DNA from: Solimonas sp. K1W22B-7
GTDB lineage: Bacteria; Pseudomonadota; Gammaproteobacteria; Nevskiales; Nevskiaceae
NCBI RefSeq assembly: GCF_003428335.1
Contig: NZ_CP031704.1
Coordinates: 3,224,001-3,288,000, forward strand
Length of the DNA stretch: 64,000 nt
Direction: 5' to 3'
Each line of letters opens with the position of its first letter. The first letter of the stretch is position 1. This document shows positions 31,470-64,000 of this stretch, one piece after another. The notes under the pieces are model-generated. The model ran no database searches, was not told the origin of the DNA, and saw only the letters and a program-made list of their open reading frames with translations. Made by a program: the position numbers and the translations under genes.

Positions 31470-31937
31470 CTACGGAATCGCCTGGACCCGCGAAATCTCC
31501 GCTTCCAGCGCCGTCAGGTCCGGAATGGCCGCTTCCTGGTTGGCGATGCGCACCCGCGCCAGCACCAGGTCGGCGCGGTCGGTGGGGCGCAGTTCCAGCG
31601 GCTTCACCGCCGGGCGGTTCAGCGTCACCAGGTGCGGGTAGCCCTGGCTGACGATGGCCAGCAGGCCGCTGGGCAGGTGCGTGCCGAAGGAGTTGAGCAC
31701 CACCACGCGGGCACGGCGCGATTCGGCGTTGCGGCCGGAGCCATTGGCCGTCTCGAAGCTGATCACCGGCACGCGGCGGTTGTTCCAGTCGCAGTAGCCG
31801 GCCAGCCAGGCGGGAGCACCGCTTTCCGCCGGCTGCAGGGCGTCGCGTGCCACCACCTCGGCCACGGCCGCATTGGGCAGCAGCAGGGTGTCGCCCTCCA
31901 GGGCGATCAGCACGGCATAGATTTGCTCGCGGTTCAT
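31470..31937 (-). CDS. chpC: CheW-like adaptor, ChpC type
   Basis: A 155-residue CheW-fold protein (ALEGDTLLLPNAAVAEVV..., WLAGYCDWNNRRVPVISFE, and ARVVVLNSFG). It is the last gene of the chemosensory operon, and its ATG overlaps the chpA stop by 4 bp. Position immediately after the ChpA kinase matches ChpC of the Pseudomonas Pil-Chp system, which links a chemoreceptor to the kinase. The identity as ChpC rather than another CheW paralogue rests mainly on gene order. A terminator follows. Confidence 0.75.
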   Translation of the reverse strand: MNREQIYAVLIALEGDTLLLPNAAVAEVVARDALQPAESGAPAWLAGYCDWNNRRVPVISFETANGSGRNAESRRARVVVLNSFGTHLPSGLLAIVSQGYPHLVTLNRPAVKPLELRPTDRADLVLARVRIANQEAAIPDLTALEAEISRVQAIP

Positions 31938-34900
31938 GTGGTCTCTTCGATCACTTCACGCAGTTCGCCGACCAGCTGCTCTTCCTGGTAAGGCTTGATC
32001 AGGTAGCGGTTGACACCGATCGACCGGGCCCGCTCGCGGTGTTTGTCGCCCGAACGCGAGGTGATCATGATGATCGGGGTCGCGGAGATGCGTGTGCTGT
32101 TGCGCACGAAGGTCGCCACCTCGAAGCCGTCGGCACGCGGCATCTCGATGTCCAGCAGGATCGCCGCCGGGGTCTCGGTCTGCAGCTGCGCCATCGCGTC
32201 GAGGCCGTCCTTGGCGGTCACCACGCGGTAGCCGTTCTTGAGCAGCAGGCGCTCGGTGACGCGGCGGATGGTGATGGAGTCGTCCACCACCATGATCAGG
32301 TTGCGCACATCCTCGGCCTTGTCCGCGGCATCCGCCCTGCCCGCGGCTAGGCTGGCCAGGGTGCGGCGGGCGCGGTCCTGGGCCAGGGCGCCCGGATCCA
32401 GGATCAGCACCACGCGGCCGTCGGCCAGGATCGTGGCGCCGGTGACACCGCCCACCGAGCTGACCTGGGGACCGACCGCCTTGGACACGATTTCACGGTT
32501 GCCCAGCAGCTGGTCCACCACCACCGCGATGCGGCGCTCGGCGGCGCCCAGGCCTTCGCCCATGCGGACCAGGATGGCGTTGACGGTGCGCGATTCGGAG
32601 GCCTTGTCGCGCGGCACGTCGATGAAGTCGCCGAGGTAGCGCACGCGGTACTCGGCACTGCCGTAGCTCAGCAGCGGGCCGTCCTCGTTGTAATAGTCGT
32701 CGAGCTGCTCGCGCGGGATGCGGGCGATGCCCTCGACACTGGACAGCAGCACGGCGTACTGCTCGTGGCCGACGCCGACCAGCAGCGCCTGCGACATCGC
32801 CAGGGTCAGCGGCAGGCGCACCAGGAAGCGCGTGCCCTTGCCCCACTCGGAACTCAGTTCCAGCGTACCGCCGAGCTGCTTGACCTCGCTGGCAACCACG
32901 TCCATGCCGATGCCGCGGCCGGCATCCTGGGTCAGCTTCTTGGCCGTGGAGAAGCCCGGCTGGAAGATGAACTGCGCCACTTCGTCGTCGCTCGCCTGCG
33001 CATCCGGCGGCATCAGGCCCTTGCGGATCGCCTGGGCGCGGATTGCCTCGAAGTCCAGGCCCTTGCCGTCGTCGCGCAGCTCGATCAGCAGTTGCGAGCC
33101 ATCGCGCCAGAGGCTGACTGCGATGCGCCCCTGGCCTTCCTTGCCGGCACCGGCGCGGGTGGCCGGATCCTCGATGCCATGCACCACGGCATTGCGCAGC
33201 AGGTGTTCCAGCGGCGCCGTCATGCGCTCCAGCACGTTGCGGTCCAGCTCGCTCTCGACACCGGCGAAGACCGCTTCGGCCTGCTTGCCGTTTTCGCTGG
33301 CGGTCTGCTTGACCACGCGCTGCAGGCGCGAGACCTGGCGCGAGAACGGCACCATCAGGGTGCGCATCAGGCCCTGCTGCAGCGAGGTATTCACGCGGCC
33401 CTGCTGCATCAGCAGGGTATCGGCCTCGCTGATCAGGCCGTCCATGGTGGCGTGCAGGCCGGCAAGGTCGCCGATGGATTCGTTGAGTGCGCGCGACAGT
33501 TCCTGCATGCGCGTGTAGCGGTCCATTTCCAGCGGGTCGAACTCCGCCGCGTAGCGATCCGACTGGTCAGGCGTGTGTCCGAGGCCGCGCGCCGCGATCT
33601 GCGCGTCGGTCTCGGTATCCATCTGCCGGAGCTGGTCGCGAATACGCGCGATGGCCTGGCGCATTTCGTCCAGCTGCGCCTCGACGCCGCTGTTGTGCTC
33701 TTCCAGGCGCGAGCGGTAGATCGAGATTTCACCGGCTTCGTTGAGCATGCCGTCCAGCGCTTCCACCGGCACGCGCGCGGTTTCACGGCGGAACGAGGCC
33801 TCGCTCTCTTCCTCGGGGCGCCAGAACAGCAGCGGATCCCAGGCGTGGACCGGCAAGGCGACAGGCGCCTCTTCGGGCAGGGTCAGGCGTTCCTCGGCGA
33901 CTGCTGCCGCCTCGCCCTCGCCTTCGGTCAGGGCGGAGATGTCGCCGCGCTCGAGCAGGTCGTGCATGTGGTGCAGGCGCTCGCCTTCCTTCGACAGCTC
34001 GGCCAGCGTCGCCGCATCTGCCGCTTCCAGCCCGGCCTCGATACGGTTGATACGGGTTTCCATGTCATGGGCGAGGTCGCCCATGGCATTGAGGCCAGCC
34101 ATGCGCGCGCCGCCCTTGAAGGTGTGCAACACGCGCTGCAGGTCGCGGATCGGCGCCGGGTTGGTCGGCTCGCCGACCCAGACGCGCAGCGACTGCTCCA
34201 GCGCTTCCAGCAGTTCGGCGGCTTCGCCGGAGAAGATTTCGCCCAGTTCGGCGTCGTAGCTGCGCAGCGACTCGGCCGACGGCGCGTAGTCGGCTACCGG
34301 CGCCGGTGTGGGCTCCGCCGCTGCACGCTCTTCGGTGAGATCGGCCAGCAGCGCCTGGGTGTTGGGAATCTTGCCGCGACGCAGGTCGTCCAGCACCATG
34401 TGCAGGCCGTCGGACGCGGAGTGCATCTGCGCGAAGAACCCGGCGTCGGCACGCGCCTGGCCGCGTTCGATGCGCTCGAACAGCGTCTCCAGGTGATGCG
34501 CCACCTCGCCGATGTCGTCCAGGCCCGCCATGCGCGCACTGCCCTTGAGCGTGTGCAGGACGCGCTTGAGTTCGGCCGTGGCCGGCAGGTCATGGATGTT
34601 GCGTTCCAGCGTCGAGTTGCTGCGGTCCAGCGACTCCAGCAGTTCCTCGGCCTCGGCCAGGAACACGCCCATCAGCTCGGTATCGAGCTCCTCGTCGACG
34701 ACGACTGCAGGCATCTCCAGCGCCGGCTCGGAATGTTCCGCCGCCACAGGCTCGATCCGTGCCTCGGCCTCGGCCGGCAGGTCCAGCAGCAGGCCCGCAT
34801 CGAGGACAGCGTCGCCGTCGGAGGCGGTGACCTCGACGACCGGCTCATCCAGGATTTCCAGGCTCAGGCCCGGCTCGGGCAACGATTCCGGCAGCGCTTC

Positions 34901-37900
34901 GGCAAGCCCGGCGGGTTCCACCGCCAGCTCGATGATCTCGGGCAGGGATCCGGCGTCCACCGCAGCCGCGTCCAGCTCGGCCCACTCTATTTCTTCGACC
35001 GGCTCCGCCAGTTCGATGACGGGCTCGACCTGTTCCAGCGCGGGTTCCGCCAGGTCGATGGCCGGCTCGGCCAACTCCAGGAGGATTTCCTCCTCCGCCT
35101 CGGGCTCGGACTCGACCGCCGGCATCTCGATCACTTCCAGCGCGGCCTCGACCTCGGCCGACAGCGGCAGCGCTTCGGCCGGCGGCGGCTCGGCCGCAGC
35201 GACCAGCTCGATTTCCTCGGCCGCCTCGGCAACCGGCTCCACCGTGATCGGCGGCATCTCCAGCGGCACCTCGGCCACGAGCGCAACCGGCGCGGCGGCT
35301 GCAGCGATGGCATCGCCACGCCAGGCAAAGTCGGCGGCACGCCGCACCCAGGCCGCACCCTCATCACGCAGGCGACCGTCGCGGTAGGCATCGAGCAACT
35401 GGTACATGCCCTCCGTCAGCTCGACCAGCGCTGCGAAGCCCGCGGCATCCGGCTGGATCTCGCCGCCGATCGCCTGGTCCATGCGCGCATGCAGGATCTT
35501 GGCGACGTCGCCGATCGGCTCGCAATTGGACATGTAGGCCGCACCCTTGAGGGTGTGCAGCACCACCTTGAGGTCCAGCGGCGCCTGGCGGTTGTCCGGG
35601 GCCTGCGACCAGGCCCTGGCGGTATCCTCGAATTTCTGCACCAGCTCCAGCGCTTCGCCGGAGAATATTTCGGCCAGCTGCCGGTCCTCGGCGGCCTGCA
35701 CGGCGTCCTCCGGAACCGCGGAACTGAGGTGCTCGATGCGTTCCAGCCAGGCCCGCGCATCCTGCTTCTCCACAGCCGGGGTACCGACTTCCTCGACCCA
35801 CTGGGCCAGCACGGCGGTGGCCTCTTCGAGCAGGTCGACATCGGCGCCACCCAGGCGCAGCGTGGCGCCGCGCACGGAATCCAGGTGTGCTTCCAGCGCC
35901 TCGGCCAGTTCGGCCAGGGCGGTGGCGGAAACGATATGACCGGCGCCGCGCAGGGTGTGGTAGGCGCGCACGACATCGTCGTTGACGTCGAAGTCGACGT
36001 CGCTGCGGTCCAGCCCCCCCAGCCAGTCCCTGATCTCGGCCAGCTTGCCGCGGGCATCCTCGCGGAAGATCTGCACCAGGTCCGGTTCGGGTTGCTCCTG
36101 CGCACCGCGGCCGGCGGCCAGGTTCTGCGCACGCTCCACCAGGCCGGCGAGCGGTGCCGGCGGGCCGAGACGCTCACGGAAGCTGTCGATCAGGCGCGGC
36201 AGCAGTTCCACCGCCTCGATCGCTACGGTCACCACCGGAGCCGACACGGACACGGAGCCGTCCAGGCACTTGTTCAGCAACTGCTCGAAGGCCCAGCCGA
36301 AGTCGCCGATCGCCGCGGCGCCCACCATGCGGCCGCTGCCCTTCAGGGTATGGAAGGCACGACGCAGCGTGGTCAGCGAATCGCGGTCCGAAGCATCGCG
36401 CGTCCAGCGCGGCATCGCCGACTGCAGGGTCTGCAGGACCTCCGCGGCCTCCTCGAGGAAAATCTCGCGGATCTCGGGGTCGACGTCGTCGGCCGACACC
36501 ACCACCGGCGTCGGGGTCGACACCGGCACGGGCTCGGGCGCCAGCTCGAGGACCGGCGAGTCGGCCGCTGCCGGCGGCTCCGCCAGCACCAGGTCGGCCA
36601 GCGACTGCATTTCCAGCGGCGCCGGCTCGGACGGCTCGGACGCGGCTTCCACCAGCGCCAGGCCCGGCCCGAAGTCCAGCTGGCCGACGAAACGCGCCAG
36701 GTTGTCGAGGATGTAGCCGGCGTCCGGCAGGTTGTCGCGTACCGCCTCGATGTAGTACTCGACGCAGGCCACCGCATCGGCGAAACGGTCGGCACGGTCC
36801 TGCGAGTCGCGCAGGGAGGCGAAGGCGGGGCTGCGCACCACCGTCACCAGGTGCTCCACCAGGCCGGCGGCGCGCTCGTCCTGCAGGATGCGGAAGCCGG
36901 AGGCGATCTCCTCGAGCATGCGCGCGGCGTCGACCACCACGATGCTGCCTTCCTGCCCGCGGATCACCGCGTCGACCTGCGACTTGAGCTTGGCCAGGTT
37001 GACCAGCGACTCGCGCTGCAGGGCATCGATGCCCTCGGCCAGGTCGCGGCTGTGCGGCACGATATCCTGGATGTTGTCTGCCGCCGGCTCGCCGGTACGG
37101 GCCTGGCGCAGTTGCTGGAACAGGGCGTCGTCGAGACTGTGCTCGACGCGCAGGATCGAGGTCGCCAGCTCCATCCAGGCCGTCGGCGTAGCGGCGTCGC
37201 CAAGGCCATCGAGCAGGTGCGACTGGTTGTCGACGATGCGCTGCAGTGTGCCCAGGCCGAGGATCGACAGGGTGTCGGAGATGCGCTTGAGGCTGCGCCG
37301 GGTGCCTTCGATGTCCGGCAGCGACTTGCCGCCGGCGCGCACCGCCAGGTCGATGACGTCCTTGATCTTGGCGAAGTCGGCGCGGATTTCGTCGGACACG
37401 CGCATCAGCAGCGTAGTGTTCGGGCCGTGGATGCGGCGGCGCAGCTCTTCGAGCTGCGTGGCGCCCGGCAGCAGCTGCTGCAGCTGGAAGGCCTTGCGCA
37501 TCACCGTGACGCGCGGCCCCTGGCCGCGCGAGCGGCCGATGAAATAGAGCAGCTGCAGCGACAGGTCACCCACCGCCAGCTCGGCCCGCGGCTCGCCTTC
37601 GGCCGCCATCAGCTTGATCTGCGCGCCGCTGCGGCCGATCAGGCGCTTGACCTCCAGCGATTCGTCCAGGCTGTGGCCCAGCAGGGCCTCGACCACGGCC
37701 GCCACCACGCGCCACAGCTGGTGTATTGCCGGCAGCTCGGCGCAGCCCGCCAGCAGCTCGGCGATCTTGCCGATGCGTGCCAGCGCGGTCGCCGCGTCGG
37801 CATCGCCCTTGAGCCAGTGCAGCAGCGAGGCCTGGTAGACACTCAGGTACTTGTGCGACTGCTGCTGCGCCGCGCCCGGCGTGCGGCCGTCGTCTTCCGG

Positions 37901-38365
37901 CAGCGGCAGGCCCAGGGCCAGGCCCTGCATCTGCATCACGAACAGGTCGGCTTCGGTCAGCACGGCCTTGCCGCGCGCCAGGCGCAGCTCGTTGATGGCC
38001 GGCTGCAGGATCAGCACGCAGTCGTCCATGCCGTCGGCCAGCGACTCGATGTAGTCGCTGAGCAGCACGGTGGCGCCGAGCAGGGCCGAATAGGCCGCAT
38101 CGGTCTCGCGGATGCGCCCATGCAGCAGGTCGCCGATGGCCTGCTTCATTTCCTCGGCCAGTTCGGCAATGCCGTAGCACTGGATCATGCTGGCGGTGCC
38201 GCGGACCTGGTGCAGCTCGACGAAGGCCTGCTGCATCGGCAGCGGGTCGGTGCCGCCCTCGGCATGCTGCTCGACCAGCGTACGGACGCGGGACAGGCTT
38301 TGTTCGATCTCGCCGCGGACCCAGTGCAGGCCGTTGGCGGTGTTGGCGCGGAGTCTGGCGTTCAT
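31934..38365 (-). CDS. chpA: Chemosensory hybrid histidine kinase ChpA/PilL of the type IV pilus system
   Basis: A 2,143-residue CheA-like kinase. Six Hpt-like sites are visible: an N-terminal HQVRGTAS, then HTLKGSGRM, HTLRGAGHI, HTLKGAAYM, HTLKGSARM and HTFKGGARM. Between them lie acidic, Pro/Ala/Glu-rich linkers, the longest about residues 1030-1220. The kinase core has HLLRNAVVHGIED (N box), DDGKGLD (G1) and GRGIGMDVV (G2), followed by a CheW-like domain and a C-terminal receiver with IMVVDDS and the phospho-acceptor in LLDIEMPRADG. This matches P. aeruginosa ChpA, which controls twitching and pilus-linked cAMP signalling. It starts 1 bp after the pilI stop and overlaps chpC by 4 bp. Confidence 0.95.
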   Translation of the reverse strand: MNARLRANTANGLHWVRGEIEQSLSRVRTLVEQHAEGGTDPLPMQQAFVELHQVRGTASMIQCYGIAELAEEMKQAIGDLLHGRIRETDAAYSALLGATVLLSDYIESLADGMDDCVLILQPAINELRLARGKAVLTEADLFVMQMQGLALGLPLPEDDGRTPGAAQQQSHKYLSVYQASLLHWLKGDADAATALARIGKIAELLAGCAELPAIHQLWRVVAAVVEALLGHSLDESLEVKRLIGRSGAQIKLMAAEGEPRAELAVGDLSLQLLYFIGRSRGQGPRVTVMRKAFQLQQLLPGATQLEELRRRIHGPNTTLLMRVSDEIRADFAKIKDVIDLAVRAGGKSLPDIEGTRRSLKRISDTLSILGLGTLQRIVDNQSHLLDGLGDAATPTAWMELATSILRVEHSLDDALFQQLRQARTGEPAADNIQDIVPHSRDLAEGIDALQRESLVNLAKLKSQVDAVIRGQEGSIVVVDAARMLEEIASGFRILQDERAAGLVEHLVTVVRSPAFASLRDSQDRADRFADAVACVEYYIEAVRDNLPDAGYILDNLARFVGQLDFGPGLALVEAASEPSEPAPLEMQSLADLVLAEPPAAADSPVLELAPEPVPVSTPTPVVVSADDVDPEIREIFLEEAAEVLQTLQSAMPRWTRDASDRDSLTTLRRAFHTLKGSGRMVGAAAIGDFGWAFEQLLNKCLDGSVSVSAPVVTVAIEAVELLPRLIDSFRERLGPPAPLAGLVERAQNLAAGRGAQEQPEPDLVQIFREDARGKLAEIRDWLGGLDRSDVDFDVNDDVVRAYHTLRGAGHIVSATALAELAEALEAHLDSVRGATLRLGGADVDLLEEATAVLAQWVEEVGTPAVEKQDARAWLERIEHLSSAVPEDAVQAAEDRQLAEIFSGEALELVQKFEDTARAWSQAPDNRQAPLDLKVVLHTLKGAAYMSNCEPIGDVAKILHARMDQAIGGEIQPDAAGFAALVELTEGMYQLLDAYRDGRLRDEGAAWVRRAADFAWRGDAIAAAAAPVALVAEVPLEMPPITVEPVAEAAEEIELVAAAEPPPAEALPLSAEVEAALEVIEMPAVESEPEAEEEILLELAEPAIDLAEPALEQVEPVIELAEPVEEIEWAELDAAAVDAGSLPEIIELAVEPAGLAEALPESLPEPGLSLEILDEPVVEVTASDGDAVLDAGLLLDLPAEAEARIEPVAAEHSEPALEMPAVVVDEELDTELMGVFLAEAEELLESLDRSNSTLERNIHDLPATAELKRVLHTLKGSARMAGLDDIGEVAHHLETLFERIERGQARADAGFFAQMHSASDGLHMVLDDLRRGKIPNTQALLADLTEERAAAEPTPAPVADYAPSAESLRSYDAELGEIFSGEAAELLEALEQSLRVWVGEPTNPAPIRDLQRVLHTFKGGARMAGLNAMGDLAHDMETRINRIEAGLEAADAATLAELSKEGERLHHMHDLLERGDISALTEGEGEAAAVAEERLTLPEEAPVALPVHAWDPLLFWRPEEESEASFRRETARVPVEALDGMLNEAGEISIYRSRLEEHNSGVEAQLDEMRQAIARIRDQLRQMDTETDAQIAARGLGHTPDQSDRYAAEFDPLEMDRYTRMQELSRALNESIGDLAGLHATMDGLISEADTLLMQQGRVNTSLQQGLMRTLMVPFSRQVSRLQRVVKQTASENGKQAEAVFAGVESELDRNVLERMTAPLEHLLRNAVVHGIEDPATRAGAGKEGQGRIAVSLWRDGSQLLIELRDDGKGLDFEAIRAQAIRKGLMPPDAQASDDEVAQFIFQPGFSTAKKLTQDAGRGIGMDVVASEVKQLGGTLELSSEWGKGTRFLVRLPLTLAMSQALLVGVGHEQYAVLLSSVEGIARIPREQLDDYYNEDGPLLSYGSAEYRVRYLGDFIDVPRDKASESRTVNAILVRMGEGLGAAERRIAVVVDQLLGNREIVSKAVGPQVSSVGGVTGATILADGRVVLILDPGALAQDRARRTLASLAAGRADAADKAEDVRNLIMVVDDSITIRRVTERLLLKNGYRVVTAKDGLDAMAQLQTETPAAILLDIEMPRADGFEVATFVRNSTRISATPIIMITSRSGDKHRERARSIGVNRYLIKPYQEEQLVGELREVIEETT

Positions 38366-55143: not shown

Positions 55144-56187
55144 TCAACTGGACTTTACAAGTACCCGTGAACGGAACGCGCCGGGTGACTCACCGCTCCA
55201 TCGCTTGAACGCGCGCTGGAACGCACTCTGCTCCGAGTAACCCAGCAGGAAGGCGATCTCGGTGATGTGGATCAGGGGGTCGGCGAGATAGCGCTGCGCC
55301 AGTTCATGGCGCACGCCCTCGATCAGGGCGGAGTAGGTCATCCCGCGCTCGGTGAGCTTGCGCTGCAAGGTGCGCGTCGCCATGTGCAGTGACTGCGCAA
55401 CGTCCTCCACCCGCGGGACTTCCTTGGTCAGCTGGCGCGAGACGTAGGCACGCGCCTGCTCCAGCGGATCGTCGGAGGCGGCCGCCTGGATCAACAGGCG
55501 CTGGCCGTACTCGTCCATCATCCGCTGGATCATCGGATCCTGCCGCGGCATCGGCAGCCCCAGGATCGTCTCGTTGAACACCAGCGCTTCGCGCGGCGCG
55601 CCGAAGCGGATGGGGCACTGCAGAATACGTTCGTGCTCGCGCAGGTCGGTCGGCGCCGCGTGCCGGAACTCGGCGCGCGTGTAAATCCGCTGCACGCCCG
55701 TGGCCCAGCGCGAGAACACCACCCAGCTGGTCACGTCCAGCTCGGAGAAGGCGCGGCCCGGGTGGTAGTCCGTCGGCTGCCAGACCAGGGCCATGTCCTT
55801 GCCCATGGGCTCCACCGTCACCTTGTTGATGGTGTCGACCAGCGTCTGGTAGCGCACCGCGCGCTCCAGCGCCTCCGCCGCGGTGGCTGCGCTCATCACG
55901 GCATAGCCCTGCACGCCCAGGTGCCGCGGCTCCACGCTCTCGCCCACGTGCAGGCCGATATTCGGATCGCCGGTCAGGGCTGCGGCGTCGTCGAGCATCC
56001 GGACGTACTGGCGCGCCGGAATCTGGCCCGAGTCGTTGCCCGGATCGACACCGGCGCGCGTGGCAAAGGCCTTGGCGTCATGTCCACGTGCGCCGAGGTA
56101 GTCCAGCAGCGCGCCGACATAGGTGACGGCCACGGACAAGTGCTGCGGGATGGCGCGGTCAGTCATCGGCCTGGCATGCGTCGTCAA
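55144..56187 (-). CDS. AraC-family regulator with arabinose-binding-like N-terminal domain (OruR type)
   Basis: A 347-residue regulator. The C-terminal AraC double HTH spans about 240-345 (VEDVAQSLHMATRTLQRKL, then ITEIAFLLGYSEQSAFQRAFKRW). The N-terminal ~200 residues fit the OruR/arabinose-binding-like sensor fold (VGALLDYLGARG, NIGLHVGESVEPRHLGVQGYAVMSA). The TTG start at 56187 has AGGAGAG with a 7-nt spacing; ATG at 56166 is an alternative lacking a ribosome site. It is divergent from the truncated AraC gene. It is one of two candidate activators of the operators at 58024 and 61923. Confidence 0.88.
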   Translation of the reverse strand: MTTHARPMTDRAIPQHLSVAVTYVGALLDYLGARGHDAKAFATRAGVDPGNDSGQIPARQYVRMLDDAAALTGDPNIGLHVGESVEPRHLGVQGYAVMSAATAAEALERAVRYQTLVDTINKVTVEPMGKDMALVWQPTDYHPGRAFSELDVTSWVVFSRWATGVQRIYTRAEFRHAAPTDLREHERILQCPIRFGAPREALVFNETILGLPMPRQDPMIQRMMDEYGQRLLIQAAASDDPLEQARAYVSRQLTKEVPRVEDVAQSLHMATRTLQRKLTERGMTYSALIEGVRHELAQRYLADPLIHITEIAFLLGYSEQSAFQRAFKRWSGESPGAFRSRVLVKSS

Positions 56188-56294
56188 TACGACGCTCTCC
56201 TCTTGAGCCTACGTTGGGCTGGGCCGTCCCGCTCCTCGCGGCTGCGGCCTTTGGGTGCCTTGGAGCATATCAGGAGCAAGGGACGGGACACATC

Positions 56295-56900
56295 GTGGAC
56301 GGCATTTCCGGTAATGGCTGGGCAGCGGCGCGGCAGCAGGAATTCCCGCCCCCTCCCGCAGGCGAGGACGATGGCGTGCCGGCGCACTATGTCCTGGGGG
56401 TGATGGAGCTGGCGCTGGCCCGCGGCGTGCCGCGCGAGCGCATGCTGCGCCAGGCCGGCCTGCCCGAGGGATGGTGTCCCGCGCCGGAGTCCACCGTGGC
56501 CTGGGAGCTGTTCCGCCGCCTGCTGGCCGCGGGAGTGGATGCGCAGCCGGCACGGCAGGCGTCGGATTTCCCGGACCGGGTGCGGCAGGCGCTGCGCGCC
56601 CCCGGGGATCACTACCTGTGCCTGCGCGCCGTGGCGCAGCGTCTGTGCATGTCGGAGCGCACGCTCAAGCGCAAGCTGCAGCGCTGCGGTAGCGGCTACC
56701 GCCAGCTCCTCGACGAGCTGCGCTATCGCGAGGCCGCCGCCCTGATGCGCCAGGCCAGCCTCAGCGTCGAGGAGATCGGCGCGCGCATGGGCTATGCCTC
56801 CCCCGCCAACTTCAGCCGTGCCTTCCGCCGCTGGGCCGGCGCGCCTCCGGGGCAGTACCGCAGTTCCCGGCTGCTGGCGGCCACGGTGGCGCAGTCGTGA
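56295..56900 (+). CDS. AraC-family regulator with short N-terminal domain
   Basis: A 201-residue protein whose C-terminal half is a complete AraC HTH domain (LRAVAQRLCMSERTLKRKLQRCG, then VEEIGARMGYASPANFSRAFRRW). The N-terminal ~95 residues have only a fragment resembling the OruR-type sensor (VLGVMELALARGVPRERMLRQAGL), shorter than the usual ~200. The start is uncertain: GTG 56295 is used because it follows a GGGACGGGA stretch; TTG 56214 or ATG 56400 are possible. The stop overlaps the next gene's GTG (GTGA). It heads the exported-protein cluster, so it may regulate it. Confidence 0.75.
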   Translation: MDGISGNGWAAARQQEFPPPPAGEDDGVPAHYVLGVMELALARGVPRERMLRQAGLPEGWCPAPESTVAWELFRRLLAAGVDAQPARQASDFPDRVRQALRAPGDHYLCLRAVAQRLCMSERTLKRKLQRCGSGYRQLLDELRYREAAALMRQASLSVEEIGARMGYASPANFSRAFRRWAGAPPGQYRSSRLLAATVAQS

Positions 56901-58015
56901 AGGCCGCCACGGCCGGCGCGCTGCTGCTGGTCCTGCTGCTGTTGGCCTGCGGCGGCGGGGGAGTGCCGGGCATGGCAGGCCAGGAGCCCGAGGAGCCGCC
57001 GGTCGATCTCGATGGCCCGGGCCGCTACTACGTGTTCCGCACGCTGCCGCACCGGCCGCGCCAGCCCACGTCCGAGCAGCTGCGCCGCTGCTATGCGCAT
57101 TTCGGCCTGGTCGGTGGCCTGCTGACCAGCTTCGTGCAGACCAACGCCGTCAGCTTTGCCTTCTCCAGTGATCCCGACAGCGGCTTGGTCAGCGGCGAGA
57201 CCGCCACCTATCTCGGGCCAGGCTTCATCTGCGCCCGGCCCGCGCTCAACTCCGACTACACCGAGGCCTATGCCTACGCCAGTATCCCCGGTGCCGGAGA
57301 CATCGATGCCCAGGGCAACTGCCTGATTTCGCCGCAACTGCAGGGAGGCTCCACGCCAGCCGCCTTCGTCGGCTGCCGCATGGCGCTGCAGCCGAAGATC
57401 GAGGTCAACGTCGCCGGGGGCTTGGCGGTCAGCAACACCGTCTCCGGCTCCATCTTCACCGCCTACGTCGTGCCGGCCCAAGCCGGCACGGAACTGCCTG
57501 CCGCCGCGCCGCCGCCGCGCATCCCCGAAGAGGAGATCGGGGCCCTGCCCAACGACCCCGACTTCTGGGTCCTGCGCAGCTTCGACGAAAGCCTGCCTGC
57601 GGACTCCGGCGACTGTGCCGCGGGCGAGACACAGCGCTTGCTCGCACTCTCGCCGGTGGAGGCCGACGCGCAGACTTCGCGCCTCAACCCCTGGCAGCCC
57701 CTGCGCCGCGTCGCCGGCGCCCGGCTCTGCCTCGGCGCGGCGGGCGGCACGCGGCGCAGCGCAACGGCCAGCGTGGACCTGCTGCGCCACGGCGCGCCAC
57801 TGAGGGTCGAGGCCAGCGGCGACTGCGACTACCTCGAAACCCCCGCCGGCATGCATTGGCTGCAGCAGGCCTGCGTGCTGCGCTTCGTCCGCGCCAGCGA
57901 TCCCGCGGTCACCGGCGGCCTGCTGACGATCAGCGGCCTGGTCCAGGCCCAGGCGCCCCTGGTTCCGGCCAACTCGCAGGTCTGGACGCTGTCGCTGCTG
58001 CCTCCGGCACCGTGA
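56897..58015 (+). CDS. Lipoprotein of unknown function
   Basis: A 372-residue protein with a lipoprotein signal (AGALLLVLLLLAC, Cys about residue 18). It then has a Gly-rich linker and about nine Cys residues in the mature part, possibly disulfide-bonded. I recognise no domain. Features include GPGRYYVFRTL, HFGLVGGLLTSFVQTNAVSFAFSSDPDSG and a Pro-rich stretch (AAAPPPRIPEEE) near residue 200 that may divide two domains. The GTG start overlaps the AraC stop (GTGA). Downstream lies the AraC-type promoter at 58024-58086. Confidence 0.7.
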   Translation: MKAATAGALLLVLLLLACGGGGVPGMAGQEPEEPPVDLDGPGRYYVFRTLPHRPRQPTSEQLRRCYAHFGLVGGLLTSFVQTNAVSFAFSSDPDSGLVSGETATYLGPGFICARPALNSDYTEAYAYASIPGAGDIDAQGNCLISPQLQGGSTPAAFVGCRMALQPKIEVNVAGGLAVSNTVSGSIFTAYVVPAQAGTELPAAAPPPRIPEEEIGALPNDPDFWVLRSFDESLPADSGDCAAGETQRLLALSPVEADAQTSRLNPWQPLRRVAGARLCLGAAGGTRRSATASVDLLRHGAPLRVEASGDCDYLETPAGMHWLQQACVLRFVRASDPAVTGGLLTISGLVQAQAPLVPANSQVWTLSLLPPAP

Positions 58016-58023
58016 TCCGGCAT

Positions 58024-58086
58024 GGCGTACGCGGTCATCGGCTCGGCGCAGGCGGTCAATACCCCACCGGCCCCATGCCCTAATTT
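58024..58086 (+). promoter_or_regulatory. Putative class II AraC-type promoter of the esterase gene
   Basis: Two direct half-sites, GGCGTACGCGGTCAT (58024-58038) and GGCGCAGGCGGTCAA (58045-58059), have a 21-bp period. TAATTT at 58081-58086 fits a -10 box. A 17-bp spacer would put the -35 position at 58058-58063, overlapping the proximal half-site, where the sequence is not a -35 consensus; this is the layout of an activator-dependent promoter. The same layout occurs at 61923. Confidence 0.7.
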
Positions 58087-58092
58087 CCTCTA

Positions 58093-58113
58093 CGCCGGTG
58101 AACCTCACCGGCG
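58093..58113 (+). other. Predicted 5'-terminal mRNA stem-loop (esterase transcript)
   Basis: CGCCGGTGA (58093-58101), loop ACC, TCACCGGCG (58105-58113), a perfect 9-bp stem. It starts 7 bp after the TAATTT box, where transcription would be expected to begin. An unrelated stem sits at the same position in the 61923 promoter, which suggests a selected 5' hairpin, possibly for mRNA stability. Confidence 0.55.
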
Positions 58114-58176
58114 CGCCATGCCAGGACAGGTGACAGGAAATAGCCGGCAAGGTCGCCAGCCCCAAGGAGGAAAAAC

Positions 58177-59082
58177 ATGAAGTCGCTTCAACAAGTGTTG
58201 CGCACGGCCTGCGCCGTGATCGGACTGTCTTTCGCCGCGCCGTCGATGGCCATCGACCTGCCGTTCTGGAACCTGCCGGGATTCCCCGCACCGTCGACCT
58301 GCTCGGTGGCGCCGACCACCGGCATCGGCAGCTTCAATGGCACCCTGGCCGTGGTGCCGGTGGGCATCAGCGGGCGCTGGTACAGCCTGCATGTGCCGCC
58401 CGGCCTCACTCCCGGCCAGAAGGTCCCGCTGCTGATCGACCTGCACGGTGCCGGCGAGTCGGAAGACCTCGCCGAGTACCAGACCGGCTGGAGCCCGTAC
58501 GCCAACCAGAAGAAGTTCATCGTTGCCTACGGCCAGGCCCTGGGCACCGTCGTCGGCGGCACCTTCTGGAACGCCTACAGCGAGCATGGCAACGACGAGC
58601 AGTACCTGCGTGACGTCATCGAGCACGTCTCCGCCAAGTACTGCATCGATGCCAAGCGGGTTTACGTCGAGGGCTTCTCCAACGGCGGCGTCATGGCCCA
58701 GCGTGCCGCCTGCGACATGGCCGATACCGTCGCCGCGGTGGCCTCGCATGCCGGCGCCACGCCGACGATGCTCGGCGCCGCCTGCAACCCGATCCGCCCG
58801 ATCGGCGTGATGATGTCGGCCGGCGATGTCGATCCGACCCAGTTCACGCAGTACGACGAACAGGCGCGCGCCATGTGGATCGCCAAGAACGGTTGCTCCA
58901 CCTCACCGGTGAGCAGCAGCGACAGCTACGGCACCACCGACAGCCATGGCGGCTGCTCCGGCGGCGTCCGCGTCGACTGGCGCATCCTCACCAACACCAC
59001 CCACCAGTGGCCGCTGGGTGCGGGCCAGACCGATCTTCACGACCGCATCTGGAACTTCCTCACCTCGCACACGCTGCCCTGA
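58177..59082 (+). CDS. Secreted PHB-depolymerase-family esterase
   Basis: A 301-residue exported alpha/beta hydrolase. The signal peptide ends near PSMA (residue 25). The nucleophile elbow is GFSNGGVM (Ser about 169), the oxyanion-side motif is LLIDLHGAGES, and the His is likely in NTTHQW near residue 279. This fits the LpqC/esterase PHB-depolymerase family, which includes extracellular polyhydroxyalkanoate depolymerases and feruloyl esterases; the substrate is not decided. An AAGGAGG ribosome site sits at 7 nt. Six or more Cys may form disulfides. It is the first gene of the proposed AraC-controlled unit. Confidence 0.85.
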   Translation: MKSLQQVLRTACAVIGLSFAAPSMAIDLPFWNLPGFPAPSTCSVAPTTGIGSFNGTLAVVPVGISGRWYSLHVPPGLTPGQKVPLLIDLHGAGESEDLAEYQTGWSPYANQKKFIVAYGQALGTVVGGTFWNAYSEHGNDEQYLRDVIEHVSAKYCIDAKRVYVEGFSNGGVMAQRAACDMADTVAAVASHAGATPTMLGAACNPIRPIGVMMSAGDVDPTQFTQYDEQARAMWIAKNGCSTSPVSSSDSYGTTDSHGGCSGGVRVDWRILTNTTHQWPLGAGQTDLHDRIWNFLTSHTLP

Positions 59083-59107
59083 GCGCAGCCATTGCAGGGC
59101 TTCACCG

Positions 59108-59143
59108 CTGCGCCGGAGGGCAACCTCCGGCGCAGTCTTCCTT
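59108..59143 (+). terminator. Probable terminator after the esterase gene
   Basis: CTGCGCCGGAGG (59108-59119), loop GCAA, CCTCCGGCGCAG (59124-59135), a perfect 12-bp stem, then the pyrimidine tail TCTTCCTT. The tail is not a pure T-run, so termination may be partial and allow read-through to the FG-GAP genes, which have no other visible promoter. Confidence 0.6.
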
Positions 59144-59206
59144 GCAGGGATGGAACAGCAGAATATGAGCGCTTCGAAGCGCCCCAGGTCCGAGGAGAGG
59201 GAGTCG

Positions 59207-60535
59207 ATGAACAGGCAGGGAACCCGCATGCGCAGGTCCGCGGCGCCTCAACGGCGGTTGCTGGCCGCAGTCGCGGCAGCCCTGCTGCTGGCCGGCTGTG
59301 GCGCGGCCGACAGCGATCCCGTCGCGGACGGCGTGGGCGGCATCATCCGCCAGCTGAGCTTCACCGAGCCGGCCGGCTTCAGCGCCGGCACCGTGCCCTG
59401 GCTGGTGGTGACCGGTGACGTCAACGGCGACGGCCGCCCTGACGTGGTCACCGCCAACGTCGGGCTCGGCAATGCCGGCGTCTCCGTCGTGCTCAACCAG
59501 ACCGAGCCGGGCGCGGAAAGCCCCAGCTTCGCCGCGCCCAGGCATCTGGCCACCGGCATCCTCACCGGCATCGGCACGCTGGGCGTGGCGCTCGGCGACA
59601 TCAACGGCGACGGCCTGGTCGACATCATCGCCGCCAACAGCATCACCGCCCCCGCCGCCGCCATCTCGGTTTTCATCAGCCGCACGCCCAGGGGCTCCAG
59701 TGAGCTGGCCTTCGAGCCGGCGCGGCGCTACACCGCCGGCATCGGCGCCTCCCTGGTCTGCCCCGACGACGTCAATCGTGATGGCCGCATGGACCTCATC
59801 GTCACCAACTCCTTCGACAGCCCCGCCAGGGTCGTCTCGGTGCTGCTCAACCAGACCGCGGCGGGTGGCGATCTCGCCTTCTCCGCGCCGACCGCGTTCG
59901 CCGGAGGCAGCACGCCGGAAGGCATGGCCTGCGGCGATCTCAACGGCGATGGCCTGACCGACATCGTCGTCGGCAACACCAGCTCCAACGAGATGACCGT
60001 GCTGCTCAACCGCACCGCACGCGGCGCGGACACTCCCGACTACGCCGGCCCCTTCAGCATCGCCTCGCCCATGGCCACGGCGGTGAAGATGGCCGACTTC
60101 AACGGCGACGGCCGGCTCGACCTGATCACCGGCGAGGGCGTCAGCGGCGCCGGCGTCAACATCGCGCTCAACCTCACGCAGAACGGCGCCATGGAGCCGG
60201 CGTTCTCGGAGCTGACCCACTTCGACACGCAAGGCTGCGTCACCGAGGACATCGCCGTGGCCGACTACGACGGCGACGGCCTGCTGGACTTCGCCGCCGC
60301 CAACGACAACGCCCTGTTCTGCGCGCCGCGGCCCACCGGAGTCGCCGTGCTGGCCAACCGCACGCCGCGCGGCGCCGCCAAGCCCGAGTTCACCGAGGCG
60401 CTGACCTATCCGCCCGGCATCGCCTCCAACACCATCGCGCAGGCCGACTTCAACGGCGACGGCCGCCCCGATCTCGTCGCCGCCACGCCCACCGCCGGCG
60501 CGGTGCTGCGCGTGCTGTTCAACACCAGCCACTGA
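59207..60535 (+). CDS. FG-GAP/VCBS-type beta-propeller lipoprotein 1 (seven calcium loops)
   Basis: A 442-residue lipoprotein (AALLLAGC, lipid Cys about residue 30). Seven DxNxDGxxD-like loops recur every ~50-60 residues: DVNGDGRPD, DINGDGLVD, DVNRDGRMD, DLNGDGLTD, DFNGDGRLD, DYDGDGLLD and DFNGDGRPD. Seven repeats fit a seven-bladed integrin-like propeller binding Ca2+ in each blade. Interblade stretches repeat SVVLNQT/SVLLNQTAAG. The ATG at 59207 follows GAGGAGAGGGAG. It is expected on the outer membrane or periplasmic side. The stop lies 4 bp before the next paralogue. Confidence 0.85.
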   Translation: MNRQGTRMRRSAAPQRRLLAAVAAALLLAGCGAADSDPVADGVGGIIRQLSFTEPAGFSAGTVPWLVVTGDVNGDGRPDVVTANVGLGNAGVSVVLNQTEPGAESPSFAAPRHLATGILTGIGTLGVALGDINGDGLVDIIAANSITAPAAAISVFISRTPRGSSELAFEPARRYTAGIGASLVCPDDVNRDGRMDLIVTNSFDSPARVVSVLLNQTAAGGDLAFSAPTAFAGGSTPEGMACGDLNGDGLTDIVVGNTSSNEMTVLLNRTARGADTPDYAGPFSIASPMATAVKMADFNGDGRLDLITGEGVSGAGVNIALNLTQNGAMEPAFSELTHFDTQGCVTEDIAVADYDGDGLLDFAAANDNALFCAPRPTGVAVLANRTPRGAAKPEFTEALTYPPGIASNTIAQADFNGDGRPDLVAATPTAGAVLRVLFNTSH

Positions 60536-60539
60536 AGCC

Positions 60540-61916
60540 ATGCGCAGACTTCCAGGCCTGGTGGCGGCGACGGCGTCCGCGATCCTCGCGGCCTGTTCCG
60601 GCAGCGGCGCGGAGCAGAGCACCCCGTCGTCGCGCGCCGGCTGCGCCGCCGGCGTGGTGCTGGAGTTCATGGCCCCGTCCAACTTCCAGGTCGGCACCGG
60701 CTCCTGGTACGCCGTGGACAGCGACTTCAACCGCGACGGCCGGCGCGATCTCGCCGTGATCAACGCCGGCGCGGTGACCGGCGCCGGCGGCCTGTCGGTG
60801 CTGATGAACGCGACGGCGCCGCGCGCCGAGAGCGCGCAATTCCTAGACCCGGTGAAGTTCACCACCGGCGCCAGTCCGCAGGCCCTGGGCCTGGCCGACA
60901 TCGACGGCGACGGTCTCGACGACCTGCTGGTCGGCAACTGGCTCGGCAGCGGCCTGTCCGGCCTGCTGCCCGGCATCCTGCTGCCCAGCAACGGCGCGCT
61001 GTCGGTGCTGCTCAACCGCACACCGGCCGGCGCCGACGAGCCGCGTTTCTTGCCCAAGGTGGATTTCCGCGCCGGCCCCGGCACCGGCGGTGTCGCCGCC
61101 GCGGACTTCAACCGCGATGGCCGCATCGACATCGCCACCACCAACTTCAACACGCCGGGGCGCGGCGGCCTGTCCGTGCTGCTCAACCGCACGCCGCGTG
61201 GTACCGATACGCCGGCGTTCTCCGACACGGTGTTCTACGATGTCGGCGCCGCGCCGATCGGCCTGCAGGCCAAGGACATCAACGGCGACGGCAAGCCGGA
61301 CCTCGTGGTCGGCAACTCGCTGGGCTTCACCGTCTCGGTGCTGATCAACCGCACGGCCGACGGCGCCACGGAGCCGGACTTCGCCGCGCCGCTGGATTTC
61401 GCCGTCGGCAGCTTCGGCAACGGCCCGGAGACGCTCGACCTCGAGGACATCAACGGCGACGGCCGCCTCGACGTCGTCAGCCCGCATTTCTTCACCCCGG
61501 GCCCTGGCGTCATCTCCATCCTGGTCAACACCACGCCGCCGCGCGCCGCCACGCCCAGCTTCGCCGCGCAGGTCGTGGTCCATGCCGGCATCGCGCCGGA
61601 GCAGGTGATCCTGGAAGACATGGACGGCGACGGCCGCCGCGACATCGTCGTCGCCAACTTCGGCGAGGTCTCCACCGGCCGCGCCGTCGTGCCGGGCCTG
61701 CCCGGCGTCTCCGTGCTGCTGAATCGCACCGCGCCCGGCAGCGATCAGATCGAGTTCGCACCACGCCAGGACCACGCCGCCGGCAGCGGCCCCGCCGGCA
61801 TCGTCGCCAGCGATCTCAACGGCGACGGCCGTCCCGACCTCGCCGTCGCCAACATGCTCGCCATCGGCGGCGGCTTGTCGGTGCTGATGAACCAGGGTTG
61901 CGGACAGACACCGTAA
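60540..61916 (+). CDS. FG-GAP/VCBS-type beta-propeller lipoprotein 2 (seven calcium loops)
   Basis: A 458-residue paralogue of the gene before it. The lipobox is LAACS (Cys about residue 19). Seven calcium-type loops: DFNRDGRRD, DIDGDGLDD, DFNRDGRID, DINGDGKPD, DINGDGRLD, DMDGDGRRD and DLNGDGRPD. The connecting motif SVLLNRTPAG/SVLLNRTPRG is shared with lipoprotein 1, so tandem duplication is likely. The ATG is 4 bp after the upstream stop, with no separate Shine-Dalgarno, suggesting coupling. The AraC-type promoter at 61923 begins 7 bp after its stop codon. Confidence 0.85.
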   Translation: MRRLPGLVAATASAILAACSGSGAEQSTPSSRAGCAAGVVLEFMAPSNFQVGTGSWYAVDSDFNRDGRRDLAVINAGAVTGAGGLSVLMNATAPRAESAQFLDPVKFTTGASPQALGLADIDGDGLDDLLVGNWLGSGLSGLLPGILLPSNGALSVLLNRTPAGADEPRFLPKVDFRAGPGTGGVAAADFNRDGRIDIATTNFNTPGRGGLSVLLNRTPRGTDTPAFSDTVFYDVGAAPIGLQAKDINGDGKPDLVVGNSLGFTVSVLINRTADGATEPDFAAPLDFAVGSFGNGPETLDLEDINGDGRLDVVSPHFFTPGPGVISILVNTTPPRAATPSFAAQVVVHAGIAPEQVILEDMDGDGRRDIVVANFGEVSTGRAVVPGLPGVSVLLNRTAPGSDQIEFAPRQDHAAGSGPAGIVASDLNGDGRPDLAVANMLAIGGGLSVLMNQGCGQTP

Positions 61917-61922
61917 CGCCGT

Positions 61923-61986
61923 GGCGCAAGCGGTCATCGCGGCGGCGCAACGGGTCAATACCGCCGCGGAATACCTCACCTAATTT
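61923..61986 (+). promoter_or_regulatory. Putative class II AraC-type promoter of the third FG-GAP gene
   Basis: Half-sites GGCGCAAGCGGTCAT (61923-61937) and GGCGCAACGGGTCAA (61944-61958), again in direct orientation with a 21-bp period. TAATTT is at 61981-61986, 37 bp from the start of the proximal half-site (36 bp at 58024). The sequence between the half-sites and around the -10 is otherwise different from 58024, so the shared parts look selected rather than recently copied. Confidence 0.7.
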
Positions 61987-62036: not shown

Positions 62037-63290
62037 ATGATCACGATGGGTTCAAGCGCTTTGCGCCTTGCGGCGGCAAGCCTGCCGCTGCTGCTGGCCG
62101 CCTGTGGTTCCTCCGGCGGTGCGGCGCCCGCCGCGCCGCGCGATGGCGCGGGCACCGCGGCCAGGGACATTCGCCTCGAAGCCGACGAGCCCTACGCGCT
62201 GCCCGGCACGGGCACCGGCTTCGGCGCCGGCGGCGGCGCGGTCGGCGACTTCAACCACGACGGCCACGCCGACCTCGCGCTGGCCAACGGCCGTGGCGGT
62301 GGCATCAACATCCTCCTGAATCGCGGCGACGGCCGCTTCGCAGAAGCGCTGGTGGCGGAGGCTTCCGGCACGGTGCAGGCCATCGCCAGCGGTGACTTCG
62401 ACGGCGACGGCCTGCTCGATCTCGTCGCCGCCGGACTGCAGGACTTCTCCGTCACCATGCTCAAGGGCCAGGGCGATGGCCGCTTCGTCGCCGGCGCCTC
62501 CAGCATCGTCGGCCTGCTGCCGCAGGGCATCGTCACCGCAGACTTCAACCATGACGGCCGCAGTGATCTCGCCGTGCTCAACGGCTCGCTGACGCTGGCC
62601 GTGCTGCTGGGGCAAGGCGATGGCCGCTTCGGCCCGGCATGGCAGCTGCCGGGCGGCCTGTTCACCACCTCCATCGCCAGCGGCGATTTCGACGGCGATG
62701 GCCATGCCGATCTCGCGCTGGCCGATGGCGTCACCGAGATGCTGACCGTCTACCGCGGTGCCGGCGATGGCAGCTTCGTGCGCGGCGGCCTGAGCTTCGC
62801 CGGCGGATTCGCCGAGTCCATCGTCGCCGGCGATCTCAACGGCGACGGCCTCGACGACATCGTCGCCGGCCTGGTCGCCGCGCCGCTGCGTGCGCTGCTG
62901 CAGGAGTTGCCGGAGCAACAGCTGCGCCTGCTGGCCGGCCCTTACGGCAGCGGCGCCGACGTACTGCTCGCGGACGGCCAGGGTGGTTTCGCCGCGCCGG
63001 TCCACTACCTCGCCGGCACGGCCGCCACCGCCGTGGCGATCGACGACTACGACCGCGATGGCCGCGCCGATATCGCGGTGGCCAGCTTCCTGTCCAAGGA
63101 CCTGACCCTGCTGCGAGGCAGCGGCGGCGGCCTGTTCGCCCCCGGCCCGTCCTACGAGGCCAGCGGCGGCGCCCAACTGCTGCTCTCCACGGACTACGAC
63201 GGCGACGGCTGGCCGGACCTTGCCGTGCCCGGCGGCCTCGGCGCCGCCGAGCTGACGATCTTCCGCAACGTCTCCGGGAGCGCGCCATGA
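62037..63290 (+). CDS. FG-GAP/VCBS-type beta-propeller lipoprotein 3 (seven calcium loops)
   Basis: A 417-residue lipoprotein (SLPLLLAAC, lipid Cys near residue 23). Seven loops: DFNHDGHAD, DFDGDGLLD, DFNHDGRSD, DFDGDGHAD, DLNGDGLDD, DYDRDGRAD and DYDGDGWPD. It lacks the SVLLNRTPRG linker of paralogues 1 and 2, using GQGDGRF-type linkers, so it is more distant. The start is chosen at ATG 62037 with GAGGG upstream; ATG 62034 or 62046 are possible. The stop overlaps the kelch gene's ATG (ATGA). It is expected to be transcribed from the promoter at 61923. Confidence 0.85.
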   Translation: MITMGSSALRLAAASLPLLLAACGSSGGAAPAAPRDGAGTAARDIRLEADEPYALPGTGTGFGAGGGAVGDFNHDGHADLALANGRGGGINILLNRGDGRFAEALVAEASGTVQAIASGDFDGDGLLDLVAAGLQDFSVTMLKGQGDGRFVAGASSIVGLLPQGIVTADFNHDGRSDLAVLNGSLTLAVLLGQGDGRFGPAWQLPGGLFTTSIASGDFDGDGHADLALADGVTEMLTVYRGAGDGSFVRGGLSFAGGFAESIVAGDLNGDGLDDIVAGLVAAPLRALLQELPEQQLRLLAGPYGSGADVLLADGQGGFAAPVHYLAGTAATAVAIDDYDRDGRADIAVASFLSKDLTLLRGSGGGLFAPGPSYEASGGAQLLLSTDYDGDGWPDLAVPGGLGAAELTIFRNVSGSAP

Positions 63291-64000
63291 AGCCGGCGCG
63301 CATCAGCGGTCTCGCGCTGCTCCTGTTGCTGACCGCCTGCGGCAACTCCAGCGATCCCGCCGGCGGCCCCGCGGAGCCGCGCTACGACAACGCCGCCGGC
63401 CGCTGGGAGCAACTGCCGCCGAGCCCGCTGAAACGCCTCGAGGCCTTCGGCACGCGCGTCGGTCGCCACATCTACATCATCGGCGGCTACGAGGAGCAAC
63501 GCCTCGGCGCCTTCGGCTTCGGCCTGCCCCTGGAGGTCGAGCCGATCCCCGGCGCCAAGGTCGAGCGCTACAACCTCGACTCCGGGGCCTGGGACTTCGC
63601 CAAGCCGATGCCGCTCCACCTGGATCACGCGCGCGCCGTCGAGTACCAGGGCAAGCTCTACGTCACCGGCGGCAATGCCGCCGTGGCCTTGGCCCTGCCG
63701 CTGTTCTGGGAATACGACCCCGCGACCGACGCCTGGACCTCGATGCCGCCGATGCCGCAACCGGCCGCCGGCCACACCGCCGTCGTGCTCGGCGACCAAC
63801 TGGTGGTGGCGGGCGGCTACATCTTCCCGGTCAACTTCCCCTCGGTGCAGCTGTTCGACTTCGGCACGCGGCGCTGGAGCCGCGGCCCCAACCTGCCAGT
63901 GATGCCCGATCACGCCCAGGCCGTGGCGCTCGATGGCTACATGTACGTCATCGGCGGACGCCCCAACGACGTGATGCAGGGCCTGGCCTACAAGCAGGTG
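63287..64000 (+). CDS. Kelch-repeat lipoprotein, 3' end outside window
   Basis: 238 codons are visible and open at the window end. A lipoprotein signal ends in LLLLTAC (Cys about residue 18). Four kelch-type double-glycine blades are recognisable: IYIIGGY, LYVTGGN, LVVAGGY and MYVIGGR, each followed by a Tyr/Trp pair region such as ERYNLDSGAW and WEYDPATDAW. Kelch proteins form beta-propellers with five to seven blades, so at least one blade is missing here. The ATG overlaps the previous stop. Its place after three propeller lipoproteins points to a shared envelope function. Confidence 0.85.
   Translation, partial: MKPARISGLALLLLLTACGNSSDPAGGPAEPRYDNAAGRWEQLPPSPLKRLEAFGTRVGRHIYIIGGYEEQRLGAFGFGLPLEVEPIPGAKVERYNLDSGAWDFAKPMPLHLDHARAVEYQGKLYVTGGNAAVALALPLFWEYDPATDAWTSMPPMPQPAAGHTAVVLGDQLVVAGGYIFPVNFPSVQLFDFGTRRWSRGPNLPVMPDHAQAVALDGYMYVIGGRPNDVMQGLAYKQV

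Follow-up and report, generated by a model that had tools for sequence, protein, structure and literature searches.

Organization of the locus

The window, by which we mean the whole 64,000-nucleotide stretch of Solimonas sp. K1W22B-7 DNA that was analysed, carries two divergent AraC-family genes next to a series of genes for presumably exported proteins. AraC1 (55144..56166, minus strand), the regulator that we propose, combines an N-terminal Arabinose_bd domain (PF12625; 145.8 bits, E 2e-42) with a C-terminal tandem-HTH AraC DNA-binding domain (PF12833; E 3e-19). Its reading frame is open to 56187, and ATG 56166 was taken as the start. AraC2 (open reading frame 56214..56900, plus strand; likely start GTG 56295) has a complete AraC HTH domain, and domain search detected no sensor domain in it. 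AraC-HTH open frames of only some 140-230 aa, a length that leaves no room for a complete sensor domain, are found here (56214-56900) and elsewhere in the genome, at C1:1313125, 4220446, 1614873 and 4056435.

The genes downstream of AraC2 all lie on the plus strand and fall into three putative operons. A putative lipoprotein gene (56897..58015), which overlaps the AraC2 stop codon (GTGA), would form operon C together with AraC2; its product has a lipobox and yielded no family match in profile comparison. Putative operon A begins with a secreted PHB-depolymerase-like esterase (58177..59082), which has a signal peptide and lies near the short-chain PHA depolymerases (133 bits, with the cut-off at 150), and continues with two FG-GAP-repeat lipoproteins, the first at 59228..60535, with its start and lipobox assigned by eye, the second at 60540..61916. 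Putative operon B comprises a third FG-GAP-repeat lipoprotein (62046..63290; ATG 62034 is also possible as a start), a Kelch-repeat lipoprotein (63287..64000), which extends beyond the window to about 64534, and, outside the window, a cholesterol-oxidase-like GMC oxidoreductase, for which cholesterol oxidase is the best model (490 bits vs a cut-off of 850). Export signals and operon structure were judged by eye, and the AraC1 and AraC2 starts, as well as the operon limits, are predictions.

Elsewhere in the window, the minus strand holds a very long open frame of at least 6324 aa (3-18974), which leaves the window and carries an N-terminal TPS two-partner-secretion domain, and a 2143-aa CheA-like chemotaxis kinase (31934-38365) in which four Hpt domains are combined with one CheW and one receiver domain.

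Paired candidate operators in front of operons A and B

Two elements precede operons A and B on the plus strand: operator A (58023..58062; TGGCGTACGCGGTCATCG-GCT-CGGCGCAGGCGGTCAATAC) and operator B (61922..61961; TGGCGCAAGCGGTCATCG-CGG-CGGCGCAACGGGTCAATAC), each consisting of two direct half-sites with a 21-bp period. The four 15-mers that an earlier note on this DNA had picked out are present exactly as written (58024-58038, 58045-58059, 61923-61937 and 61944-61958), and the 21-bp period that it gave for the two direct pairs is borne out. The same applies to the distance to the -10-like box TAATTT (58081..58086 in promoter A, 61981..61986 in promoter B, both plus strand), which begins 36 and 37 bp, respectively, past the start of the proximal half-site; at homologous operators, a -10-like hexamer is found at the same offset. 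With the -35 hexamer placed by a 17-bp spacer (58058-58063 in A, 61958-61963 in B), the note's assertion that the proximal half-site lies over the -35 position is valid for the extended conserved block GTCAATAC, which covers the hexamer, and not for the 15-mer, which touches only its upstream edge by 1-2 bp. Identity between the two promoters falls to background outside the 40-bp element, the TAATTT box excepted. Since they are alike only in these two parts, they are not the products of a recent event that duplicated a longer segment, and a leftover of a longer segmental duplication was ruled out.

Single half-sites with up to two mismatches occur at near chance frequency in the window (9 vs 4.7 expected); the information resides in the pair. 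Whether the paired element is abundant had been left by the earlier note to a genome scan, and it is not: a 22-position pair pattern has 2 exact matches in the 5.37 Mb genome, plus one match with 3 mismatches elsewhere, and the only match among the controls was one to the backward pattern. A loosened pattern gave mere noise in the same genome (50 matches vs 36 for the backward control). In the contigs of 85,000 species, from which records near this genome are possibly absent, the exact pair pattern had 51 matches, which we judged to be chance hits because nearly all lie within long open frames and none has a correctly placed TAATTT after it. The genomes of 146 relatives, searched with a tolerance of up to 3 mismatches, gave scattered matches, including some recurring coding sequences, and none of them is A/B-like except the window's own sites; the operators of homologous regulators were missed in this search because their spacing or bases differ.

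A third, diverged candidate operator between the AraC genes

The earlier note saw no third copy in the window, which proved wrong: matrices built solely on A and B, with a 40-column matrix for scoring, detected operator C (56151..56190, plus strand; TGGCGCGGTCAGTCATCG-GCC-TGGCATGCGTCGTCAATAC), which is more diverged than A and B and keeps the 21-bp period. It is followed by the -10-like hexamer TACGTT (56210..56215, plus strand) in the same register as in B (CCTACGTT in C, CCTAATTT in B). Operator C lies between the divergent AraC genes, overlapping the first AraC1 codons (ATG 56166) and facing AraC2, its predicted target. Its score with the A/B matrix was attained 3 times in 15 million Markov-sequence positions. 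Real loci occasionally reach such a score as well, and many of these loci had been retrieved because they resemble the pattern, so that the location of C in a promoter region matters; its position relative to the regulator start recurs in AraC1 homologues. A 23-position pattern common to A, B and C, which was drawn from these sites themselves and thus matches all three exactly by construction, has no other match in the 5.37 Mb genome with up to 3 mismatches, nor does its reversed control have any. Of the proposal that two sites define a regulon of exported proteins, the regulon is supported, and the number of operators rises to three.

Association of the operator type with AraC1-like regulators

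No close orthologue of either AraC protein was found in the relatives searched, the best match being 54% for AraC2, across its HTH region, and at most about 43% for AraC1. As AraC1 lacks a close orthologue in these genomes, A, B and C could not be phylogenetically footprinted; a class-wide search for AraC1 homologues produced a match in one further genome. We scanned positions -70 to +10 relative to the gene start in 56 AraC1 homologues (31-43% identity, paralogues in the same genome included) with a matrix built from the A and B half-sites only (score at least 12). A paired site was present at the start of 28 of these 56 genes, in a set that is not statistically independent, several members being close relatives of one another, and all of these sites lie on the divergent strand. 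There were no same-strand pairs at the 56 starts, and shifted positions or a reversed matrix gave 0-1; about half of the homologues are without a clear site near the start. With the same matrix, not one of 28 AraC2 homologues had a paired operator at its start.

The sites of the homologues follow the consensus TGGCG-N6-GTCAA, N4-6, GGCG-N6-GTCAA, with a half-site period of 20-22 bp, compared with 21 bp in A, B and C, and have a -10-like hexamer (CAGAAT, CACAAT, AACAAT or similar) at a nearly fixed offset. The motif is thus not private to the AraC locus studied here: divergent versions of it stand at many AraC1-type gene starts. The sites, their register, their uniqueness in the genome and the association of this operator type with AraC1-type genes are the results of computation. 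An accidental likeness, or a remnant of a segmental duplication without a regulatory role, is hardly credible in view of this uniqueness, of the same element type at homologous regulators, and of a likeness that ends at the element and resumes only at the -10-like box, even if single half-sites come close to chance frequency in this GC-rich window.

The recognition helices point in the same direction. The HTH2 helix of AraC1, SEQSAFQRAFKRW, is of the SEQSAFxRAFKRW type, which it shares with operator-bearing homologues; that of AraC2, ASPANFSRAFRRW, differs from it. A distal half-site with GTCAT is shared by A, B, C and four homologues (L153-L156), which rank among the five best AraC1 matches, and is absent from the other 27 aligned homologue sites. 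It is because of the operator at the starts of its homologues, the 0/28 for the AraC2 type, the likeness in HTH2 and the shared GTCAT that we propose AraC1 as the binder. The earlier note had allowed for either AraC protein as the regulator; AraC1 is likely to keep this role, and AraC2, itself a predicted target, to lose it. Were AraC2 instead to activate A and B, with C as its autoregulatory promoter and AraC1 as a mere neighbour, this would agree with its complete HTH domain and with its gene lying directly 3' of C and 5' of A; the missing operators at AraC2-type starts, several of which show another repeat, the deviating HTH2 helix and the undetectable sensor domain make this improbable. 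The other repeat, TGGCG-N5-TGATAAGC ... CGTCTCACG, was seen upstream of AraC genes in a group with an AraC2-like helix (L216, L217, L218, L219 and L221). Most likely, then, AraC1 is the binder and AraC2 the target.

A related operator elsewhere in the genome

When a period of 22 bp is allowed, the genome contains one more exact match, at C1:4483062-4483099 on the minus strand (L230:1501-1538). It precedes a fatty-acid-hydroxylase/sterol-desaturase-like gene, which by eye resembles the divergent genes at the AraC1 homologues, and after that gene comes a Kelch-like lipoprotein frame. Another PF12625 regulator, C1:4489448, is encoded 6 kb away. The operator is conserved in three genomes of the same genus (L232, L233, L234), which have close homologues of C1:4489448 (L160, L162 and L169, by HTH sequence) and only distant homologues of AraC1; it probably belongs to C1:4489448, and crosstalk between AraC1 and this paralogue is possible. 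One could go further and regard A, B and C as sites common to several PF12625 paralogues, such as C1:4489448, in an overlapping network, for which the similar operator and its retention in genus relatives with close homologues of C1:4489448 would speak. We consider this unlikely, given that the period differs (21 bp in A-C vs 22), as do the flanking bases (GTCAATAC vs GTCAAGCG), that the strict A/B/C pattern separates A-C from the site at C1:4483062-4483099, and that the local divergent arrangement is the rule in the family.

Discussion

In class II activation by AraC proteins, the half-sites are spaced by two helical turns, the two elements within each half-site by one, and the proximal half-site adjoins the -35 hexamer on its upstream side. 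The operators described here consist of head-to-tail half-sites with approximately this two-turn spacing (21 bp; 20-22 in the homologues), and, in A-C as in the homologues, the distance between the proximal half-site and the -10-like box of the sequence-predicted promoters is compatible with class II. A, B and C are very probably operators of AraC1, which would drive a local regulon of three units in class II fashion. Class II AraC direct-repeat operators of an exported-protein regulon, as the earlier note had already put it, are the best-supported reading, now backed by comparative genomics.

We infer binding by AraC1, activation, autorepression, a ligand and the transcription starts. Two AraC1 subunits, or the two DNA-binding domains of a dimer, would be arranged head-to-tail on the half-sites, with TGGCG and GTCA, one helical turn apart in each half-site, taking up the two HTHs. 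As the proximal half-site abuts the predicted -35 hexamer, bound AraC1 could recruit RNA polymerase, leading to activation at the -10-like boxes TAATTT (A), TAATTT (B) and TACGTT (C), and so turn on the three units C, A and B, including AraC2. Because C covers the AraC1 start codon, occupied C is expected to block AraC1 transcription, and equivalent sites may act likewise at the starts of the homologues. From this overlap one might conclude that the operators, although bound by AraC1, act mainly as roadblocks that repress their promoters. Such a role is improbable: the sites lie just upstream of -35, at a near-fixed distance from the -10-like box in A, B, C and the homologues, which is the activating class II position, and two published regulators of broadly this kind, SphR and GliR, are activators.

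The genes divergent from the homologous regulators encode fatty-acid hydroxylases/sterol desaturases, an acyl-CoA dehydrogenase, DUF1302 proteins, a polyketide-cyclase/lipid-transport-like protein and a bile-acid-symporter-like transporter. From these genes and the targets of A-C it is a reasonable guess, no more, that AraC1 responds to a hydrophobic or lipid-like compound that the esterase releases or handles. The esterase paralogues in the same genome (C1:1852091 and C1:23813) have no A/B-type operator upstream; one of them (C1 about 1852088-1854098; L141:8089-10099) adjoins a divergent PF12625 AraC gene, again without such an operator.

What emerges is a well-supported new regulon with a known and ordinary type of bacterial control circuit. 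It assigns a regulator to poorly understood exported proteins, namely a PHB-depolymerase-like esterase and FG-GAP and Kelch lipoproteins, and provides promoters that can be tested. The occurrence of the operator at distant homologues amounts to a sequence rule for predicting the targets of a large, mostly uncharacterised AraC group, which often adjoins fatty-acid-hydroxylase/sterol-desaturase genes. In its most general form, which we offer tentatively, as somewhat more doubtful than not, PF12625 regulators of the SEQSAF type would carry a TGGCG-N6-GTCA direct-repeat operator that covers, or closely precedes, the start codon of their own gene and is directed towards a divergent target, and their regulons could be read from sequence; here, the sensor-bearing AraC1 would control a cascade of the sensor-less AraC2 and exported proteins that handle sterols or polyesters.

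A search of the accessible literature for a TGGCG-N6-GTCA operator, or for operators of QhpR or VirS, found nothing usable. AraC1 scores 226.8 bits against the QhpR NCBIfam equivalog, below the cut-off of 250, and its best relative of solved structure is the distant VirS of Mycobacterium tuberculosis (PDB 8rcx; E 2e-26 over almost the full length). With AraC at araBAD I1/I2, a case of class II activation described in PMC8151288, the operators share head-to-tail half-sites, the proximal one adjoining -35, and differ in half-site sequence and N-terminal domain; there is no evidence at A, B and C of DNA looping as at araBAD. GliR (PA3027) of P. aeruginosa, an AraC-family protein, has, according to the same source, a divergent main target, a motif YYGGCGHTDTYSGMC over -35 and lipid-related targets. 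AraC1 is likewise divergent from a predicted target and matches the GliR NCBIfam equivalog model, at 199.8 bits well below the cut-off of 570; a 21-bp direct-repeat pair like that of A-C is not described for GliR in the passages of PMC8151288 that we consulted. SphR of Pseudomonas aeruginosa, a sphingosine-activated AraC-family protein, uses direct TGNCCSNNRNNSNCC half-sites 6-8 bp apart and controls three promoters, sphA, sphBCD and cerN, including that of a secreted lipid hydrolase (PMC3900636, PMC5150637). Like A-C, it has two direct 15-bp half-sites starting with TGNC near the promoter and a small three-promoter regulon, with further predicted sites rare in the genome. Its ligand is sphingosine and its target genes are unlike those at A, B and C, where the sites read TGGCGNNNNNNGTCA, disagreeing with the SphR consensus at positions 5 and 15 and having GTCA instead of SNCC in the 3' part of the half-site. 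SphR and GliR are the closest published cases that we found, and their architecture and geometry match those of A-C.
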